A stretch of DNA of 64,000 bases from Glandiceps talaboti. Its lineage: Eukaryota > Hemichordata > Enteropneusta > Spengelidae. Under the pieces are notes generated by a model, which had not been told where the DNA came from, searched no databases, and was given only the letters and a program-made list of their open reading frames with translations. The stretch is from positions 6,962,975-7,026,974 of the forward strand of contig NC_135554.1 in assembly GCF_964340395.1 (NCBI RefSeq). The letters run 5' to 3'. Positions within the stretch are counted from its first letter, which is position 1; each line of letters starts with the position of its first letter. Positions 22,100-59,169 of the stretch are shown here, one piece after another. A program made the translations under genes and the position numbers.

Positions 22100-22256
22100 T
22101 TAGAAGACGGAGAATTCAAACTCATCATCTCCTCTGAAGATCACAAAGTAGGCAAGAATAGTAAAGAAGCACACAGTGTTACCAGCTATTGTCAGCCCAG
22201 CTGCTCCCCACATGATCTACAAAAGAGATAGCAAATCAGCGATTAGTCTAGGTACG

Positions 22257-22314
<58 letters not shown>

Positions 22315-23998
22315 GTCAACCCAAATCATTTCTTCAGAGCCAGAATCCTTGAAACGTTGTTCTGTGCGACGGCACTGAAAGTCAATACACACGGAATGTT
22401 TCTTTGAATAATAATATATCTAGTTTTGAAAATTTTGAGACTGCAGTTGTCTTGTGTCCCGACATTGAGAATTCCAAAGTGTAAATACTACCTGCTAAAA
22501 ACCTGATTCACAATCTATTAAGAGGGATCTTTTTCAACAATAGCGTATGATGTATTTAGATGTTATTCCCCAATATTTTACTTCGTTTCACTAAGGAAAA
22601 TACTCATAAGGGGCTTTGTCATTACGAGTGGTTAGACAAGTAGTGACAAAACCCTTAGGTCACGAGTATGTTCCGGCTGAATTAAGAAAAATATTGGAGA
22701 ATAACATAATTATACCAGTGCTAGTAATATGAAACTTAAAAGAAAACTGGGGAATGTAATGACAATTTTGAATGTTTGACCCATATTTTGAACACAGCAG
22801 AACCAGTGACAGAGACACACTTTGTTGTGACACAGACACGCGTTGTCGTGACGATGTGTGGTATAATGATAGAGAGTACTATACAGATACAATAAACCAC
22901 TATTCAACCTAACAATGTAACCTAGATGTCATGCTACAGTGTTAATTTCTAAATATGCTATTGATATGATGAAAATTTTACTTCAAGTTCAATCAAAATG
23001 GTTTCCAAAAAAAGCTTTCAGACCCAAGATTGTCTTTTCCTGGTCTACAATCAGTAATGACAGAAGACATTTTCACCAGTCTCGCTGTGTTTTTTATTCT
23101 ATGGAACACACAGTTTGTTTGTTTTTAGTACTTACAGCATTGGTATGAGCTAGGATCAATGGTAGACCATACGCTGACACTACAATACCAGTCGTGAGAA
23201 AGATACAGAGTTCTATCAGTGCACTGCTTGCTCCCGATGACAAGTCTGGTGAATATTTTCTGGCAATTACTGTGGGTACTGGACATAATACATAGAAAAA
23301 CAACACAAACATAGGCCACCAGTCACTGGTATAAAGAAAGAAAGAAAGAAAGCGTTATTATTATTTTTGGTGAATTCACTCAAGTTTGCATATTGCATAC
23401 ATAGGCTGTTTGACTTATTTCTTACTCAACTGTGTCATTTGAATAAAACACTCAATAAATTTTCAAAATCTAAAACAGGCTTATATTGGTTTTGGGGTGA
23501 CCAGTGGCAAACCACTGTCACTGCATGAAAGGGTGGCATTTCTGGTTCCGTGTACATAAGTCATACAACAGAATTGCCGAAAATTCAGAAATGCCACATT
23601 TCCGTTGTGTGACCCGTCAGGTACAAGAAAGCGGAAACACCACTTTTCATGCAGTGTAATTTCTATGGTTTCTTCAAAATAGTATGTATATAAACAGAAA
23701 GCTGTCAATTTATCAAGATTGTCCTATTCTGTTACCAAGGATCTAAACAGCAGAACCAAAGTACTAAGATGCTTACCAAAAAAGTGTATTAAAACATATA
23801 TAAAATATAGCATTCAAATTTAAACATATTCACCATCACAGTTATTTCACATTCAAATTTGTGATAATGATAATTTGCATTGAACAATTCACTTCATATG
23901 CATATTATATATAAGTACATTGTCTTGCATAGACATGCACACCTTGTGTGTTCCATTGTGTAATCATTAACAAGTATTACTTGTATGACCCACTGTGA

Positions 23999-24074
<76 letters not shown>

Positions 24075-27000
24075 TGAGAGAAAGAGTGAGAGACAGACAG
24101 ACAGCCAGACAGAGACAGACAGACAGACAGGCAGAGTGGGTGCACGTGTACAAATGTATGTGCCACTCATGAAAGAGGTGACATGACTGTTGATACTTAC
24201 CCAAAGGGTTTCAGAGCACATCCTAGAACCACCAGTGTCAGCCCACATGCTAGTGCAAAGGCTAACACAATTAGACTGCAAATTGAAACAAATAGAATCA
24301 AAGATTTATTTCATATCAAGTGACAAAATTTTGACCCCTATTGACAATAACCAAATGTGGAGATGATGTGAATGACATTATAATGATTAAAACACTATAC
24401 ACTATTTGGCTCAACAAAGTTAATTATTATTTTGTCACTCATAGTCATACACAGAATTTACAACTTAGTACCGCCAGCTTTGTTTGTGAGAATATTCTTA
24501 CATGTATTTTGCAGAAGAATACATGTACATGTACTATTATACTGAGAATTTGGATGTAAAAGTTGTTTTTTGTTATCGTCAATTCCTCTTTGTACAGGAA
24601 TGTAAATGTTATGTTAATGTAAATGTTAAAATGTAAACTACATACTGATGGTATCATCTCTTTGTTATTATAATGTAGTACAGTACAAAGTACAATGTGT
24701 ATTATGTCCTGTTTGATAACAATAGAAAATTGGGATGTTAAAATGTAAACTGCATACTGATGGTATCGTCTCTTTGTTATTACAATAAAGTACAGTACAA
24801 TGTACAATGTGTATTATATCCTGTTTGTTGAATACAATAGTAAATTGGGATCAGCATATTATACATGCAATGGTACAATGTACATGTACCTGATACATCC
24901 ATTTTGTGCATTCCCACCAATTCAAACACCTTACATTTTTGTACTTTTTCGTCTAGAACCATACACTGTGATACAGTGACTTCTGTATATAAGAACAGCT
25001 TTATACTCAGTATATGAGTCATACAGCGGTTTTCATTGACTCGTCGTTTTGATATAACCCAATAATGTTAGTAATTTCTCCTGTTATATCTGACACCAAA
25101 TTTCATTACATGAATGTCTCTAACTTGGACATCTAAACTAATTAACATCAAATAGACATGACACTTACCCTGGTTATCAGTAGAATATGAACCAGACGTC
25201 AGCAGCACAGCGAGAAAGACAATGGGGGCAAAAAAGAGACAAAGAAAAAATGGTTTGTTAATGCATGAAAATGTGGATTCATTTTCCTACTGACATCAGT
25301 GCTCATAAAGGTCAGTTTCTAGGCTATGATATTATCAATGATTTCATATCACCAAGATGTGGGTTTACAGTAAAAGGAAGCTGAAAGATGTCCACAGTCA
25401 ATACTAACAACAATATACTATAAGAAGCATTAAACAAATTATCTGGATTACCGCAAACTGCAGATGGCCTCCTGTCGGAGTCAAACATTGCAAGTGTACC
25501 AGCAGGTCTCGATAGGTGTGTCTGTATTTAGACCTAGGTGGCATATGTTACAATGAATGTCATTGAATATTCAAAATGAGCAGGATGTGATGTGAGCTCT
25601 ATATGATGTTAAAATTCAAATCTGGGACAAAAGGATGTGCTAATTAGGGCCATACATTGTATTGTGGGATAGGAGGCCTTTATACAATATTCATGGTTTG
25701 TTTTCATATTCCAAAATAGTCATGTCATAACGTGTTGAAAACAGCACAAAAGAATCACACTGTTTTTCAAAAGCTGACAATAGAATTGGTTGAATATTTT
25801 TTATATTGGTTGATAATTTTCATCTGACAAGACACAACTTAACCACAAGTGACATGACAACATATACATGTAACCTGTCGGGCTGTGGGGGGTCTTAAGT
25901 TATAACACAAATATTAATAATGTCTGTAAAAGCACATCAATACAGCAAATTTACCTCTTGGTTATCAGACATTTATCAAAAATTTGAAAAACTTTGGTTG
26001 GAAAGGGTACACCTATATCGCAAATTATGAACAAAATGTCTTCATCAAAGAAAAAAATATCTGTCTCATAGTCGTTCAACTGGTGACAAGACCCTTTAGC
26101 TCACTTGTAATTCTTAGCTATGTGTAAAATCATAAGGCAAAATAAAAACAAATCTTGTTTTCGATAATTTCAATTCAGAAAACAGGATAGGTAGGTTGGA
26201 ATTTTATTTTATTTGACTTCCTTTAAATTTTTTAATAAATAACTTCAACCTCCAAGCACATGTTATGATGATGTAAGACACCGACTCGTTGCTCACAATA
26301 CTTCCGTGAGAGTTTGATGAGGTGTAAAAGAAGTAAATGAAGACACTTATAAGTTAAGTAGATGAACATGTTATGCAGACTCTACTAGTCTAAACAGACC
26401 TGGTTTCTCTCTAGAATATGATTTTAAAAGAAAGTTACCACGAAATGTAAACTGGCAACAGGCAATGGCATGAAGGTGTACAAGGAAATACAATGTAGAA
26501 GTAAATTGTTAAGAAATAGCGCCAATGGTGCTATAGCACAACTGTATTTGGCTGTTGGTATGGGTGTGGTCTTGTTGCCAGGTATATTTACCTATATTTT
26601 CTGAATGTTTATTTGCTTGCCTATTAATCCATGTTATTTTTATAATTTCCAACATCATTTGACTGTTGCTATGGGTGTGGTCTTGTTACTAGGCATATTT
26701 GCATACACCTTTTTGAATCTTTTTTTCACTTGGCTACCCTTCCCAGTTTGCATCTTTGCAATATAAACCATCATTTGGCTGTTGGTATGGGCATGGTGTC
26801 ACTGCTAGGCATATTTACATACATTTTATTTTTACAACTTTTAAAATTGTTTAAATCTGGCAACAAAGCATCTAATCTATGTTGGTATAAAATACAGTTT
26901 ACGGTCTAATTGATGAGTTATGTCATAATGTGATAATGATAGCACATACATGTACCTATCCTTGAAATTAGTGAGTACAAATTTTGTAGTGCGCCCTCAT

Positions 27001-30000
27001 GAGGTGACATTGGTATACATCCTGCCCCCTAGCCCTTTTAACATGGTCTGATCATAACAACTGTTATTTGTCTAGGACTACAGCATATCAAATGATGTAA
27101 TCTGGTATGATTTACAGTACTTATAAAAAGTCATTAAATTCCAGTGTAAACAGAAATGATGGCTGATACAGAAAAAGTCTTTAATAAAACCACTAATATA
27201 GTACACCTTATAAACAGAAGCACTTGAAGTCATAAAAAAGCTAACAATTATCATATTCCTGTGAACAGCTGATGGAGGCATACTGCCTGTATGGAAAATA
27301 CCATCTCAAGGTCTTTTTTGAGTTTTCAAATCACATTTGTACCTGTGCCAGTCTTTGGGGGAGAAAAACAAGATACATTTAACACTGTGATTTTAGTTTA
27401 GCTTTGGATACCCCACTAACTGATAGGGTGAACTCTTGAAAAATGTGCAGTTTTCCAGTATATCATATTTTATGGAACCCTGATAAACATGTAAAATGAC
27501 TAGTGAGCTTAGATAGACTCTACCTACTTACTTCTAATAATCATACAATTCATTTGAACTAGGAATAATGATATCCACACTGACTTTCAAATCAAACATT
27601 AAAGTTACTAGTACTAGTTAGTGTTCATCCATAAATCATATATCCATATGGATAGAATACTTCTTTAACAAAGTGAATAGTACCACTTCATAGAATTTTG
27701 CTTTAAAGTGGCCATATGGATTGGAAGAAGATTTGATGTTTATTTTGGATTTTTAATATATAAAATTTTATCATGGCTTCTTCCTTGAAAAATCAATGTG
27801 ATACAACATTAACAAGGTCTGACTGTGTGTGTAACTCAATACATTGCATAAGATTAAAAAATGTGTTAATGTACGTACAATAACAAACATTTTGCACATT
27901 TTTTTAGCTTTTTGAAATGTATTGAGCTTCAAACGCAGACTTTGTCAATGTTGTATCACATTGATTTTTCAAGAAGGAAACCATGATAAAATTGGTTTAG
28001 AAATCAAAAATCAAAAATAAATATCAAATCCTCATCCATATGGCCACTTTAAAGGCCAGGGTTTTAATACTAGGTTCTTGCATTAGTGTTATCTTATCAG
28101 TAGAGAACCATCAGGATTACATAGGATTATTTTTTTATTGTGGGCAAACTGTTTCTATAGCTTTGCTAGACAACTGTTTTTCACACCTAATGTTCAATCC
28201 TTTTTCAGAGTGGGCATATTCTGGTTATCATAAAGATAAAAGATTTCATGGTTTGGCCACTGGGAGTGCTGTTTACGAGTCAAGTTGAAAGATACAAAGT
28301 TACCACCTATATTCCATGTTGTTCACACTGTAATGTTATATTAACAACTACCAATCATCAAAAGTGATTGAAATCAATGCATTTTATCTCATTCAACATT
28401 TTACATTTCAGGGCTCAAAATTAACAGTAGTCCTATACCCACAGACTACCAATTCTTGTCATGAGGCTACCATAATTTGCAGCTAGTAGTCCACTCAGGC
28501 TACCACTGATAATGTGATGAGGATGGGAGATTTATGGATATGAACATATTTTAATAACACACATATTTCCAATACAGGAAATCTGTTTTCAGTTCAGGAA
28601 TATGGACTACAGGTCACAATCCTTGGGCTAACAATTTCTGAAATTAGCCCACTAGGACTACCAAAGAAAAAGGTTCATTTCCAGCCCTGCATGTATTTAT
28701 TAAAGAACATCAACTCAAAAGGTACCCTCCATCAATCAAAACCAAAGTGTTTAATTAAAGACGAAGTCATGACAGCGCATTATAAAATCATTTCAAATTC
28801 AAATCATGGTGCTTTCAAAATTTGTGTATTTTATTATGTAAAACACAGTGGTTATAGCAGTCATTATGGCAGTTGTGTTTGTAAGGTTAGGAACCATGGT
28901 AACAGAAGGAGGAAAGTTACATGTTGGTATTAAAATGTAAATTTGTTTATGTGTGGCACCCCTGTGAAGTGTCTAGTGAACACAGACACTGGAACCTAAA
29001 TTTGTTTATGTGTGGCACCCCTGTAAAGTGTCTAGGGAACACAGACACACACTATTTGTTTACTTAGTGCACTTCATAAAAAAACATTGTACATGAAGAA
29101 TCCCATTTGTTTATTTTTTTACGAAAAGTAGTGAAAATGTTATTTAATGAGTTTTTGTCACATTCTTATTTCAATAACAATGAACAGTGTTTACTAGATA
29201 ATAGAACTGTTATGTTGACAGCCATTTTTCTGAAGTAGAGCTGAGTCATGACGTGTACAGTGACAGTCACCCCTGATCCTATATTTAGATATTTGTAGTG
29301 CCAAACCCAATTTCTATTGTTGTTACACACATACATATGCCACTGTTGTATATATGGCTATGGGGAAAGACTATATATGGCTATGGGGAAAGACTTTTGT
29401 GAGGAATCCCTGATTTCAGTATTGCAACTATTTGCTGATCCTTAGTAGAACATGACATAATTCAATAAAAAATTGTCAAACGGCAGATTGGAGATACATA
29501 TTCTGCACAACAAAACATTAAAAAAAATTGGTTTTCATTTAGTTTGTAGAAATGTTGCTGTTGTTATGTATTATCGTCATGGTTACACGATATTTTCTCC
29601 TCAAATGACTAATTAACATTAGACGTGCAAAGTCTGCATCTACTATCTAGCATAACAGTAGGACCAAGGAGTCAACGCGAACGGTAGCGATGATAAGAAC
29701 AGTGCAGTTAAACTGTAAATAAAGAATTTATTCATTATCGTACAACTTTGGTTCGTCTGTTCACATCGACAAGGTCATATCATTAACTTTCGTTTTACTT
29801 TTAGCAGCTTACATGGAGCGTTCACGGCATATGCTAAAAGGCGGTACCATTGTTATGACAGATAAGACGTCTTTTTAAAGAATTACTCATCGCCCTCACG
29901 TATGATATTTACTTAATTATTCAAGACAGCCTCTTTGAACGTCAAATACTGCCATCGATAAAATTAGCTGATTTACTTCATAAGAATTTCTGAGAAACAA

Positions 30001-30121
30001 ATTAACATCGATACAGAGGTCTTGTCAGTCAGATGTAAAATTATCGGAATTCATAATCTTAGAATAAATCAAGGTATAAATGGCAACAAAAGATCGCTCA
30101 CTTACTTTTAATACCCGCCAT
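22100..30121 (-). CDS. LEPROT: Leptin receptor overlapping transcript-like protein (Vps55 family)
   Basis: Minus-strand coding exons are 30121-30106 (MAGIK plus one base), 24275-24201, 23325-23136 and 22216-22100, with the stop TAA at 22102-22100. A one-base exon at 25169 is needed for the frame (listed separately). The predicted length is 132 aa against 131 in human LEPROT and LEPROTL1. The family is a small four-helix membrane protein of Golgi, endosomes and late endosomes that controls receptor trafficking to the lysosome. Visible landmarks are MAGIK, GLTLVVLGCAL, DWWPMFVLFFYVLCPVP, IARKY, FLTTGIVVSAYGLPLILA, MWGAAGLTIAGN and an acidic C-terminus (RGDDEFEF). One gene covers both vertebrate paralogues by similarity, so the symbol is family-level. 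Confidence 0.93.
22256..22314. repeat. (ATCA)n microsatellite
   Basis: About 14 perfect units starting about 40 bp upstream of the last LEPROT exon in transcript orientation, next to its acceptor. Confidence 0.95.
22562..22705. repeat. Fold-back element, family A, copy 2
   Basis: Ends GTTATTCCCCAATATTTT and its inverse AAAATATTGGAGAATAAC. The interior is shared with 3614-3745, including TACGAGTGGTTAG and TTCCGGCTGAAT. It lies in the last LEPROT intron. Confidence 0.8.
23520..23655. repeat. Fold-back element, family F
   Basis: ACTGCATGAAAGGGTGGCAT on the left pairs with ACCACTTTTCATGCAGT on the right. An inner second palindrome is built from GGCATTTCTG and CAGAAATGCCAC. Located in a LEPROT intron. 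Confidence 0.8.
24004..24132. repeat. (GA)n and (CAGA)n microsatellite
   Basis: About 33 GA units followed by AGAGTGAG and CAGACAGA blocks, about 70 bp from the LEPROT donor at 24200. Ser/Leu ORFs over it are artefacts. Confidence 0.95.
24612..24850. repeat. Two-copy tandem duplication, about 118 bp
   Basis: Both copies carry TGTTAAAATGTAAACT, ATACTGATGGTATC, TCTCTTTGTTATTA, AGTACAGTACAA, ATGTGTATTAT and AAATTGGGAT in order, in a LEPROT intron. Confidence 0.9.
25169..25169 (-). other. LEPROT: Candidate single-nucleotide exon of LEPROT
   Basis: On the minus strand the site reads AACCAG|G|GTAAGTG: an acceptor, one G, then a consensus donor. Exon 1 ends in phase 1 (ATT AAA A) and the next coding exon begins T CTA ATT, which needs phase 2. 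Inserting exactly one base restores AGT CTA ATT, giving MAGIK-S-LIVLAF with the same spacing as vertebrate MAGIK-A-LISLSF. Upstream there is a strong pyrimidine tract (TTTTTTCTTTGTCTC and more), a CTGAC branch-like site and no other AG for more than 100 nt. The alternative is a downstream donor in exon 1 (GTGAGC), which would add one extra residue. Confidence 0.6.
26535..26830. repeat. Three-copy degenerate tandem repeat, about 115-125 bp
   Basis: Each copy has TTTG.CTGTTG.TATGGG, then GTGGTCTTGTT or a variant, then AGGCATATTTAC. It lies in the long first LEPROT intron. Confidence 0.85.
27701..28054. repeat. Large fold-back element, family G (about 354 bp palindrome)
   Basis: CTTTAAAGTGGCCATATGGA on the left and its inverse at 28035-28054 close a palindrome with arms of about 170 bp (TTGAAAAATCAATGTGATAC near 27786 pairs near 27960). 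The centre is GTACGTAC at 27871-27878. There is no ORF. Transcription through it would give a long hairpin RNA; it sits in LEPROT intron 1. Confidence 0.88.
28049..28265. repeat. Dispersed repeat, family C, copy 2
   Basis: TTAAAGGCCAGGGTTTTAAT, CATTAGTGTTA and GCTAGACAACTGTTTTTC are in the same order as in the copy at 8193-8390. It abuts the 27701-28054 palindrome, so one element may have inserted beside the other. The 82-codon ORF here is not considered coding. Confidence 0.6.
28936..29050. repeat. Two-copy tandem duplication, about 62 bp
   Basis: AAATTTGTTTATGTGTGGCA, CCCCTGT.AAGTGTCTAG and GAACACAGACAC occur twice in succession. Confidence 0.9.
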
Positions 30122-30688
30122 CTTACATGTTGACGTCATAACCCGGAAGTTAATTTGATCCTGAGATACCAAAACATTTTTTTCTAAAAATATATAATCA
30201 CGTATTTCAGGAATAAGGGCACGTTTCTCGCCGTCGAATAATTTGTAAATAGTTCTACCTAAGCCAGGCCTTGCTATTTCTTTCGAGAAAATTCGAGAAA
30301 GTTGTCGAAAAGTGACGAAGGAAGTAAAAATAGACCGGAAGTTGAATCATTACAGATTCAATTTTTTATTCATAGCTCTTTGATTCGACAATTTTATTTT
30401 GACTGATACAATGAAATAAATACAAATCGTATAATTATCAATTTTAAAATTAATTAAAAACTTACAAATATATATGTTTAAACTAATAGTTGATATATTT
30501 GTATACTGTTTCTTAATCTATTAAAACAATATATCGCATCGTGTGTCAGATAAAATTTGCTTTGGTCATTAACTTCCTATATATACGTCATCACACGTGT
30601 GAGAGCAGCCATTTTGAACTTAGAAGCCGATCAACTGCGGTTTGGTGAAGTTGTTTTCTCAAAGAAAAACTGAAAAATACCACAAAAC
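30122..30688. promoter_or_regulatory. Divergent LEPROT-VCP promoter region
   Basis: It separates the LEPROT ATG (30121, minus) from the VCP ATG (30689, plus). On the LEPROT side are a full CRE (TGACGTCA, 30131-30138), an ETS site (CCGGAAGT, 30143-30150) and a YY1-like AAGATGGCGG over the ATG. A second ETS site lies at 30335-30342. On the VCP side, within about 120 bp of the ATG, are an inverted ETS half-site (30572-30577), a TATATA-like run (30579-30585), ACGTCA (30585-30590), an E-box CACGTG (30594-30599) and a YY1-like GCCATTTT (30608-30615). ETS, CRE and YY1 combinations typify bidirectional housekeeping promoters. Confidence 0.6.
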
Positions 30689-40876
<10,188 letters not shown>

Positions 40877-56506: not shown

Positions 56507-57821
56507 TTAGGTGATAGATGCTCTATTGAAGTTGGACAAATAAAACTTATTCTCGTGTCGGCATTTGGATATCAACTCAGTTCTTTTGTTTAGTGTGGAG
56601 CTTTTGTCTGCTTTAATAATAGTTAGTTTTTCGGTTAAACACAGGTTGCATCGTTTTGTTTTATTGGTGTATGCTTGGGCTGTCTTGCTGATGGACCAGG
56701 ATACGGAAAAAGGCTCATTGTTTCTTTTCAGTTTCCAAATGTGTTTTGATAGTTCTGTGCTGTTTTCGTGTTTTTCATGTTTGAATGACTGTTTGTCGTT
56801 GGCGTATCTCTGTTTGAAGTTGTTCTCTGTTAGACCGATATATACTTTTGTTTGTTTTCCATGGACGGTGGCTTGGTATACGATGTTTTCCGTTTGGCAT
56901 TCGCCGTTCAAAGGGCAGGTGTCTTTCTGTCTGCAATTACAAGGTTTTTGAGTGGGTTTAGTTTTGCTGTTGGAGATGGTGGCGTTTGGCGTTATGGAAG
57001 CCATGTTTGGCATGCAGCTATAACTGACTTTGACATTGTTTCTGTTGAATATTTTGTGTAACTTAGAGTCTGCTGGGAAATGTTTTGCGATTAGGTTGAG
57101 GAATCGTTTGCCTACATTGGTGGCTACGTTTTTGCTGTATGGTGGGTTAAACCAGATGGTGTTTCTATTTCTGTTATTCTTGTTTTTCTTCGTCGGGGTG
57201 CTGGTGTACGTGATGTTCTCTTTGTGGCCGCTGGTTTTTAGTGCATTTTGGTACAATGGGGCTGCCTGGTTGAAGATGTGTTCGTCGGATGATATGTCGG
57301 AAATTCTACGGCCGATGGCTGACGATATGTTCTTGATGATGCTGGGTGGGTGGTTAGACTGCGTGTGTATGTACATGGGGTTGTCGTTGGGTTTTCTGTA
57401 AGGGTAATATTTACCGTTGTTGAGGTTGAGCGTTATGTCTAGAAAGTTGACGGTTTTCAGATTGGTGAGTATGGTTATTTTTAACTCCATGGCTTTGAAG
57501 GTTTTAGTTATGTCTTTTCTGATACTTTCTGATTTACTTCCGGTGATGTTCTTGAAGGCGGCGAGTCCGTTGTCCCTATAGAGACCTATGTTTTCTTTAC
57601 CATATTTTTTGGCTAATTTGTGTAGCATGAATATTCCGACCAGTTCGCATATTTCGGCCCCGTCGTTGCTTCCCATTGTGACGTCAAATGATCCATTACT
57701 ATTCTTTTTTACCCATGGTTTGGTTTTATCAGAGAGGAGAGATTTCCGCGCGTGCATGATAATTTGTTTGTCTTCATCTGATATGGTGGTGTATTGGCCG
57801 GCAAATTTGAGGGATTCTAAT

Positions 57822-57825
<4 letters not shown>
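56507..57825 (-). pseudogene. Penelope-like retroelement copy 1 (RT C-terminal part plus GIY-YIG endonuclease)
   Basis: A single open frame of about 440 codons (the listed start lies in the TA tract and is not real). Early residues show the palm and thumb of the reverse transcriptase: EICELVGIFMLHKLAKKYG, GLYRDNGLAAFKN, VNFLDITLNLNNGKYYPYRK, SNHPPSIIKNI. A Cys cluster follows (CNCRQKDTCPLNGEC), then a GIY-YIG endonuclease (VYQATV...KVYIGLTENNFKQRY, ELSKHIWKLK). The front of the RT is missing, cut at the TA tract. The catalytic YxDD is YRDN here (Asn codon at 57571-57569), so the copy is probably inactive despite its clean frame. Confidence 0.9.

Positions 57826-57907
<82 letters not shown>
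57826..57907. repeat. (TA)n tract between the two Penelope-like copies
   Basis: About 41 TA units at the 5' truncation of copy 1 and directly after the tail of copy 2. Confidence 0.95.
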
Positions 57908-57914
<7 letters not shown>

Positions 57915-57936
57915 AAATACACAAGTTATGGTACGG

Positions 57937-57982: not shown

Positions 57983-59169
57983 AACTGAAATTCAAGTGAT
58001 AGAATTCGAACTCGCAAAAGAACTGGTACCCAGATGTGATGCACGTTGTCTTGAGGAGTGACATGGTAGAATGATAGAATGTATTTGTCTTCATGGTGGC
58101 AATTTGAAATCAGTTCTAATCGTTTATTGAGGAGCCCCAATTTGTTCGCACTTATGATAAACATCTTCTCCGTAAGACACAGGTTGCACCTTTTTGTTGC
58201 GTTAGAGTAGGCGGCTGCATGGGCAACTATAGCTCAGTTGATGGAATACTGGTGGCCCGACTCCTTTATTTTCCAGACACACTTTGAAAGTTCTGCACAA
58301 TTTCCATATTTGTTATTGGCGAAAGAACACTTGTGGTTGCCGTAACGCGTTTTGAAGCTGTTTTCTGTTGAGCCAATGTAAGATTTGGTATCTCTGTTGT
58401 TTATTTTGACCTAGCTGGCGCTGTAGACGATATTGTCTGATTGGCATTTCCCATCAAGCGGGCAAGTTGATTTATCACGACAGTTGCATGTCCCTATGGG
58501 AGCTTCGTTTCCGCGTTTAAGGATCATATTATTGTGAGCTTAGATGATGGAAGCCATGTTATTCGTACAACTGTAGCTCACTTTCACGTTCCCCTTGTTG
58601 AAAATTTTATGTAACTTGTGCTCCTTAGGGAAGTGACGCCCAAGAAGTTGGAGGAAAATTCTCCCGACGTTATTGCTTACGTTTTGACTGTATGGAGGAT
58701 TAAACCAGATGACATTACGTTTCCTATTGCTCCGTCTCTTGATGGTGTCAATTCCATCTGTGTAAGCAAGGTTGTCTTTATAGCCACTTGCTTTGAGTGC
58801 GTCATCATAAAGGGGTGCTGCCTGGTTGAAAACATTCTGATTACATGAGATGTCACACATTCTTCTATTTATGGCTGCTGGGAGATGCTTGATGATAACC
58901 GGTGGGTGATTTGACTGTGAGTTGATGCACACTGGGTTGTCATTTGGTTTTCTGTATGGGTAATATTTCCCACTGGAAAGGTGTAATACGATATCGAGGT
59001 AATTTACAATTTTCAGGTTAACTCCGATGGTTATTTTCAGACCGATGTCATTGAGATCTTTGTGATGTTTTTCTTTATCTGTTCTGCCTTGTTACCTGAT
59101 ATTTTGTGGAAAATAGCTAAACCGTCATCCCTGTATAGACCTACATGGTCTTTAGAGTACTGCAATGCA
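57983..59169 (-). pseudogene. Penelope-like retroelement copy 2, degenerate
   Basis: Homologous to copy 1 across its length but broken by stops and frameshifts. Recognisable blocks are GLYRDDGLAIF (about 59135-59100), the SNHPPVIIKHL block (58932-58540), IWFNPPYSQNV, HKIFNKGNVKVSYSC, and the Cys-cluster and endonuclease remnants to about 58090. It keeps YRDD where copy 1 has YRDN. It is truncated further into the RT than copy 1. Confidence 0.85.

Follow-up and report, generated by a model that had tools for sequence, protein, structure and literature searches.

Can an exon consist of a single nucleotide (nt) in a nuclear gene of an animal? The question is raised by the LEPROT gene of the enteropneust Glandiceps talaboti, which lies on the minus strand of a 64,000-nt stretch of contig NC_135554.1 (here C7, positions 6962975-7026974), referred to below as the window. 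The first two coding exons of this gene do not join in frame, and a lone G at position 25169 of the window, within the intron between them, stands between a potential splice acceptor and a potential splice donor and would restore the frame. On sequence grounds, the best-supported reading is that LEPROT intron 1 probably holds a genuine 1-nt exon and is removed in two sequential splicing steps, in line with a preliminary description of this locus.

The interrupted reading frame of LEPROT

The coding part of exon 1 (30106-30121; ATGGCGGGTATTAAAA) opens with an ATG at 30121 and encodes MAGIK and the first base of codon 6, thus ending in phase 1. It is followed by the donor GTAAGT at 30105-30100 (context AAAA|GTAAGT, downstream sequence GTAAGTGAGC), which scores 9.0 bits with a matrix trained on introns of the window and shares 7 of 9 positions with U1. 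Exon 2 (24201-24275, 75 nt, reading T CTA ATT ... TTT GG) is in phase 2 at both its start and its end and lies behind the acceptor TTTGCAG|TCTAATT, which scores 6.7 bits. The coordinates, the minus strand and the mismatch between a phase-1 end and a phase-2 start all agree with the preliminary description. Exon 3 (23136-23325) spans 190 nt, and exon 4 (22100-22216) comprises 117 nt including the stop codon. The position and phase of intron 1 match those of vertebrate LEPROT, and exon 2 of the human gene measures 76 nt as against 75 nt here. For blunt snout bream leprotl1, a gene of four exons has been reported, with intron-1 primers that we take to bracket the start codon, which bears only indirectly on the phase of the vertebrate intron.

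When exon 1 is joined directly to exon 2, translation yields MAGIKI followed by a stop, whereas insertion of the single G, as had been claimed, restores the frame: exons 1, G, 2, 3 and 4 together encode a LEPROT protein of 132 amino acids. This product belongs to the Pfam family Vps55 (PF04133), with an E value of 5.2e-36 and a score of 123.6 bits against a cut-off of 24.6; in the PDB, no homologue was found at E values up to 1. Searches of the 590-Mb genome with the protein, the joined coding sequence (CDS) and the Pfam model found no second copy of LEPROT. The protein search returned three matches, all of them exons of this gene, and the joined CDS returned the same three. With the Vps55 model, exon 3 lay above the cut-off of 24.6, and exon 4 (20 bits) and another place on C7 (18.7 bits) lay below it. 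As no second copy was found in the assembly, it is unlikely that we are dealing with a dead gene.

A one-base candidate and its splice signals

The proposed exon, the G at 25169 (25169-25169, minus strand), is preceded by CCAG and followed by GTAAGTG (GTAAGTGT), so that the motif noticed earlier as CAG|G|GTAAGTG is found as CCAG|G|GTAAGTG. It would supply the second base of codon 6 (A-G-T, serine). The base is thus flanked by AG and GT within an intron between coding exons, and it is needed for the frame, though two weaker in-frame routes without it exist. It divides intron 1 (5,830 nt) into a 5' piece of 4,936 nt (25170-30105, GTAAGT...CCAG) and a 3' piece of 893 nt (24276-25168, GTAAGTG...TTTGCAG), the latter with a donor of 12.4 bits and an acceptor of 6.7 bits. 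The matrices were trained on 18 of the introns in the window (12 from the neighbouring VCP gene, two from LEPROT and four from an RPF1-like gene), with generic frequencies as pseudocounts; the candidate and LEPROT intron 1 were kept outside the training set, in which donors range from 4.1 to 13.4 bits.

Upstream of the G, an AG-free zone of 115 nt (25172-25286) lies between two AGs, and the AG at the candidate is separated from the previous one by 117 nt, compared with 24-104 nt for the 18 training acceptors; the earlier statement that no AG occurs for more than 100 nt thus holds. The zone contains a pyrimidine tract (25250-25212, approximately 43-81 nt upstream of the G) with two TCTC motifs, a branch-point-like CATTAAC with its A at 25258 (-89) and TGC motifs at 25207 and 25204 (-38 and -35). 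Further matches to yTnAy occur at -97, -30, -19 and -8, and CTAAY is absent from the zone. Immediately upstream of the candidate, the frame reads TAA CCA GG|T.

Rarity of the site in the intron, the window and the genome

Across both strands of the window, 405 AGNGT motifs were counted, those less than 130 nt from the window ends being left out. Five of them have a donor of at least 9 bits, two have an AG-free zone of at least 100 nt, and only the one at 25169 combines both. Intron 1 of LEPROT holds 19 such motifs, the second-best donor among them scoring 5.8 bits. When all internal exons no longer than 52 nt that contain no stop and keep the frame were ranked within this intron (210 candidates), the single G came first with 14.9 bits, followed by a candidate with 13.6 bits, and no other candidate had a donor that reached 9 bits.

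Dinucleotide shuffling of the intron produced a 1-nt candidate whose donor scored at least 12.3 bits in 12 of 1000 sequences, and in none of the 1000 was it accompanied by an AG-free zone of at least 100 nt. With the donor threshold lowered to 9 bits, 107 of 1000 shuffles gave a candidate, one of them with a long AG-free zone. Among the 6,710 AGs of the window, 56 have an AG-free zone of at least 100 nt; two of these 56 are pyrimidine-rich, and two have a donor of at least 9 bits within 30 nt. Zone, pyrimidine richness and donor are combined at 25169 alone, the other pyrimidine-rich case being located at a CT repeat. That repeat is a long CT/GA microsatellite at 23990-24100, just downstream of LEPROT exon 2.

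At the level of the genome, the 11-mer CAGGGTAAGTG occurs in 376 places, compared with 175 for its reversed control. From the first 100 of the 376, 70 places were taken (contigs C1, C2, C4, C5 and C6), 13 of which belong to one array and were counted apart; the places among the first 100 that were passed over were clustered ones and two single ones on C6. In none of the resulting 57 other copies does an AG-free zone of at least 100 nt precede the motif, the longest being 85 nt. The array, at C2:3598128-3598911, is a tandem repeat in units of about 64 bases and contains 13 copies of CAGGGTAAGTG.

Proposed course of splicing

If the G at 25169 is an exon, U2AF and U2 would bind the distal branch point and pyrimidine tract and direct splicing to the next AG, at 25171-25170, and U1 would bind the GTAAGTG that follows. 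Because there is hardly room on a single base for both U1 and U2AF, the two introns would be excised in succession. Should the 5' piece of 4,936 nt leave first, exon 1 would be joined to GGTAAGTG at 25169 as a splicing intermediate; the AAAA of exon 1 and the G would rebuild a consensus donor, AAG|GTAAGT, which would then be spliced to exon 2. The rebuilt site, AAAAG|GTAAGTG, scores 13.4 bits from its sequence, level with the strongest of the 18 training donors. This route would resemble recursive splicing in which one base is left behind in the messenger RNA (mRNA). Should the piece of 893 nt leave first, the G would become the first base of exon 2. Either order would be expected to give the junction ATTAAAAGTCTAATT in the mRNA, with AGT (serine) as codon 6, where vertebrate LEPROT and LEPROTL1 have alanine.

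Weighing the alternatives

Several observations weigh against a 1-nt exon. Such exons are extremely rare, which makes the prior probability of one at 25169 low. The long pyrimidine tract reported earlier does exist, its best 40 bases including 35 pyrimidines, yet it sits well upstream, and the 20 nt adjoining the AG score 2.5 bits, under all 18 training acceptors (6.1-15.6 bits). The layout points to a distal branch point, for which reason this acceptor is probably undervalued by a matrix that covers its final 20 nt. The frame can also be kept without a microexon in two ways, through a GTGAGC donor or through an acceptor that lies 14 nt within exon 2, and the Pfam scores of the 132-residue version and of the 133-residue version that the former would give (123.6 and 123.5 bits) do not separate the two. 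A processed mRNA copy that could witness the junction was not found in the genome, either with the junction pattern or with the joined CDS. The 21-base pattern, with up to three mismatches allowed, occurs in 105 places, compared with 59 for the reversed control, and many of the 105 belong to a repeat on contig C20; the closest matches have two mismatches, at three places whose surrounding 70 bases were judged by eye to lack LEPROT. Relatives were also sought in other collections, where 16 pattern stretches in viral contigs and 93 in prokaryote contigs yielded none that was confirmed. The C20 repeat itself, GCTATTATAAGTCTAACTGTG, is present in many copies across C20:3237076-8161525, often spaced by 47 bases or multiples of this length, and appears to be a satellite arranged in several blocks.

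The alternatives named in the preliminary description (the GTGAGC donor, a non-canonical junction and another first exon) are all possible, but each scores worse than the 1-nt exon. In the likeliest of them, exon 1 runs four bases further, to 30102, and is spliced at an overlapping GTGAGC (30101-30096, within the region 30096-30105), so that exon 1 appears as AAAAGTAA joined to the T of exon 2, with the junction ATTAAAAGTAATCTAATT. The product, MAGIKSNLIVL..., would have 133 residues, and the site at 25169 would be a recursive or cryptic site or a product of chance. This route is in frame, free of stops and equal in Pfam score to the 1-nt model, and one of the 18 training donors is slightly weaker (4.1 bits). 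However, GTGAGC reaches only 4.2 bits and five of nine U1 matches, against 9.0 bits and seven matches for the overlapping GTAAGT, and the strongest GT within 10 nt is the used donor in 18 of 18 introns (a neighbouring GT being present in 15), a result that is partly circular because the matrix was trained on the same donors. The extra residue has no counterpart in vertebrates, and the exceptional site at 25169 is left unaccounted for; we therefore regard this route as unlikely. It is quite unlikely, too, that the assembly is short of one base at the edge of exon 1 or exon 2 (a run of five A read as four, or AGG read as AG) or that a private haplotype carries an indel there. In the assembly, these edges read AAAAGTAAGT and TTTGCAGTCTAA. 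The break does fall no more than about 5 nt from the junction, where a single added base would mend the frame, but the assembly has 590,416,875 bases in 47 contigs, the adjoining VCP gene runs through 809 codons without an indel, and the site at 25169, with 0 of 1000 shuffles equalling it, would become a coincidence.

A shifted junction that leaves 25169 unused (either AAAAG|TAAGTG joined with CAG|T or AAAA|GTAAGT joined with GCA|GT) would give an identical mRNA, for a G stands both after AAAA and before TCTA, which is also why the match of the joined CDS to the genome extended two bases into the intron. Introns with TA-AG or GT-CA ends are extremely rare, though, and the 18 training introns and all 14 introns of VCP are modelled as GT-AG, which makes this explanation very improbable. 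Splicing of exon 1 to the acceptor that lies 14 nt within exon 2 (GTGTTAG|CCTTTG) would need no microexon and would remain in frame, giving MAGIKTFALAC... and 127 residues; TCTAATTGTGTTAG, which is kept when the first AG of exon 2 is used, would be absent from the mRNA, and the first membrane helix would lose five residues at its start. With an acceptor of 1.4 bits against 6.7 bits at the nearer AG, which would have to be bypassed, and a Pfam score that falls to 118.6 bits, we consider this route hardly credible. Equally hard to credit is a different N-terminus supplied by another first exon or a trans-spliced leader: exon 2 has no in-frame ATG, so some upstream exon is needed, but the MAGIK of exon 1 is identical to the start of vertebrate LEPROTL1, both its start context and its donor are good, and longer exons ending at 25169 run into the in-frame TAA.

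A few further candidates were rejected. A longer exon ending at 25169 is ruled out by that TAA and by the distance of 117 nt to the previous AG. The runner-up among the 210 internal exons, a 34-nt microexon at 26856-26823, has a donor of 7.9 bits and would insert 12 residues without a counterpart. An upstream extension of exon 2 stays open for 12 codons before a TGA, and the next AG in that direction lies at a distance of 62 nt. For ribosomal frameshifting at a skipped junction, AAA ATC TAA offers no slippery heptamer that could be recognized by inspection.

Comparison with known one-base exons

The preliminary description held that one-base exons had been reported only very rarely (in Arabidopsis APC11), a statement that is now outdated, as VPS55 of land plants and Zygnema, Fusarium CYP621A and Candida small nucleolar RNA (snoRNA) host genes have them too. 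Those in Fusarium, Candida and plant VPS55 are supported by RNA data (PMC12940212, PMC5033589, PMC8831610, PMC11096116).

The plant VPS55 exon (Yu et al. 2022, PMC8831610; Zygnema, PMC11096116) comes from the same Vps55 family as LEPROT. It also lies near the N-terminus and is followed by a GTRAGT donor, but its hosts are land plants and a streptophyte alga rather than an animal. It is backed by RNA sequencing (RNA-seq) and reverse transcription PCR; gene models without it miss N-terminal residues (13 in Arabidopsis) and the correct first helix, and a liverwort, a hornwort and Selaginella have both isoforms side by side, one including the exon and one lacking it (PMC8831610). The text of that paper implies that the annotated start is downstream of the exon. 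When the proteins are aligned, this would put the plant exon two codons or more ahead of LEPROT intron 1, and because of this offset we lean towards separate origins of the plant and LEPROT exons rather than positional homology. That N-terminal one-base exons in plant and animal members of the family mark a hot spot or a relic from before the split of these lineages, and that inclusion of the base, given a build much like that of an eMIC-dependent microexon, could switch the gene on or off by tissue, is a doubtful but conceivable idea.

The exon of Fusarium CYP621A (Nelson and Syed 2026, PMC12940212), which is kept by 20 orthologues and seen in reads from two species, shares with the LEPROT candidate the AG|G|GT arrangement, the passage from phase 1 to phase 2 and the position as the middle base of a codon. 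It belongs to a fungal P450 gene with an intron of 139 nt (in F. graminearum), and no long AG-free zone is described in the accessible part of the paper (PMC12940212). Its proposed origin is the loss of one exon base that was rescued by a cryptic AGGGT (PMC12940212). By analogy with this idea of Nelson and Syed, it is plausible that one base was lost from the start of LEPROT exon 2 and that an intronic AGGGT came to the rescue. The A333 exon of Arabidopsis APC11 (Guo and Liu 2015, PMC4674806) is likewise a required 1-nt exon for which sequential or recursive splicing has been proposed, with a putative branch point 44 nt upstream. It differs in that the gene is a plant gene, the intron measures 422 nt, the base is an A and proof was obtained by base substitution (PMC4674806).

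In the Candida snoRNA host genes (PMC5033589), a single base also lies between two introns, and a G from the neighbouring exon serves to rebuild a donor or an acceptor, but these are non-coding yeast genes with snoRNA-bearing introns in which no reading frame is involved. An animal spliceosome includes such an exon in an MPC1 minigene in HeLa cells, where an exon cut to 1 bp has its major branch points at 68 and 64 nt upstream (PMC9929638). This exon is artificial, the natural one having 4 bp, and the same authors found no 1-bp exon occurring naturally in the human genome (PMC9929638). Mitochondrial 1-nt exons, such as those of placozoan cox1 between group I introns (PMC5436844) and of fungal rnl between group II introns (PMC12308204), are of another kind.

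The LEPROT site also resembles the ratchet points of Drosophila, at which an acceptor adjoins a donor within a long intron and the donor is rebuilt after the first step (PMC8605326). In ratchet points, AG|GT is formed with zero bases between and nothing is left in the mRNA (PMC8605326), whereas here one base must stay. The donor is rebuilt at 25169 (AAG|GTAAGT, 13.4 bits), but a G separates AG from GT, and because the two do not abut, the site is not a strict ratchet point. The code for microexons governed by eMIC (of the SRRM3/4 type) consists of a weak 3' site, a long AG exclusion zone, UGC near the 3' site and a long UC-rich tract (PMC8797185). The acceptor side of 25169 shows all of these: 2.5 bits, 117 nt, TGC at -38 and -35, 35 of 40 pyrimidines and two TCTC. 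The code also includes a strong branch point, which in flies is CUAAY, and the fly version adds a weak 5' site (PMC8797185); the donor at 25169, with 12.4 bits, is among the stronger of the 18, and the zone has no CTAAY but ATTAAC at -89 beside the other yTnAy matches. As the match is thus partial, tissue-regulated inclusion of the G is a possibility suggested by these motifs.

A literature search that left most subscription journals outside, and in which the papers that looked relevant were consulted, turned up no animal with a natural 1-nt exon in a nuclear gene. As far as that search shows, the LEPROT exon, if genuine, would be the first of its kind, with a plant case in the same protein family. 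It would show that the smallest possible exon is handled by animal spliceosomes in nature as well as in minigenes, and would offer a natural substrate for studying how two introns around one base are removed. It would also serve as a warning that annotation and RNA-seq mapping overlook such exons; since a G is present at both exon edges, aligners could hide the G of 25169 at a false non-canonical junction.

Neighbouring genes and elements

The genes of the window are animal genes rich in introns. The gene for VCP/p97 begins at 30689 on the plus strand and contains 14 GT-AG introns and an unbroken frame of 809 amino acids; its first and last introns were placed by eye and then checked. The start codons of LEPROT and VCP stand head to head, 567 bases apart (30121-30689), and because of this arrangement, the two genes may share a bidirectional promoter. 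The conserved gene that follows LEPROT on the minus strand is presumably RPF1.

Elsewhere in the window, an open frame at 52840-53262 matches a Mutator-like transposase (Pfam PF20700). Two other open frames, at 56510-57925 (472 amino acids) and 58543-59091 (183 amino acids), have sequence in common when compared by eye and look like parts of a repeated mobile element; neither gave a Pfam match at an E value of 0.001. An exon at 104-427 belongs to an arrestin-domain protein (Pfam Arrestin_N).

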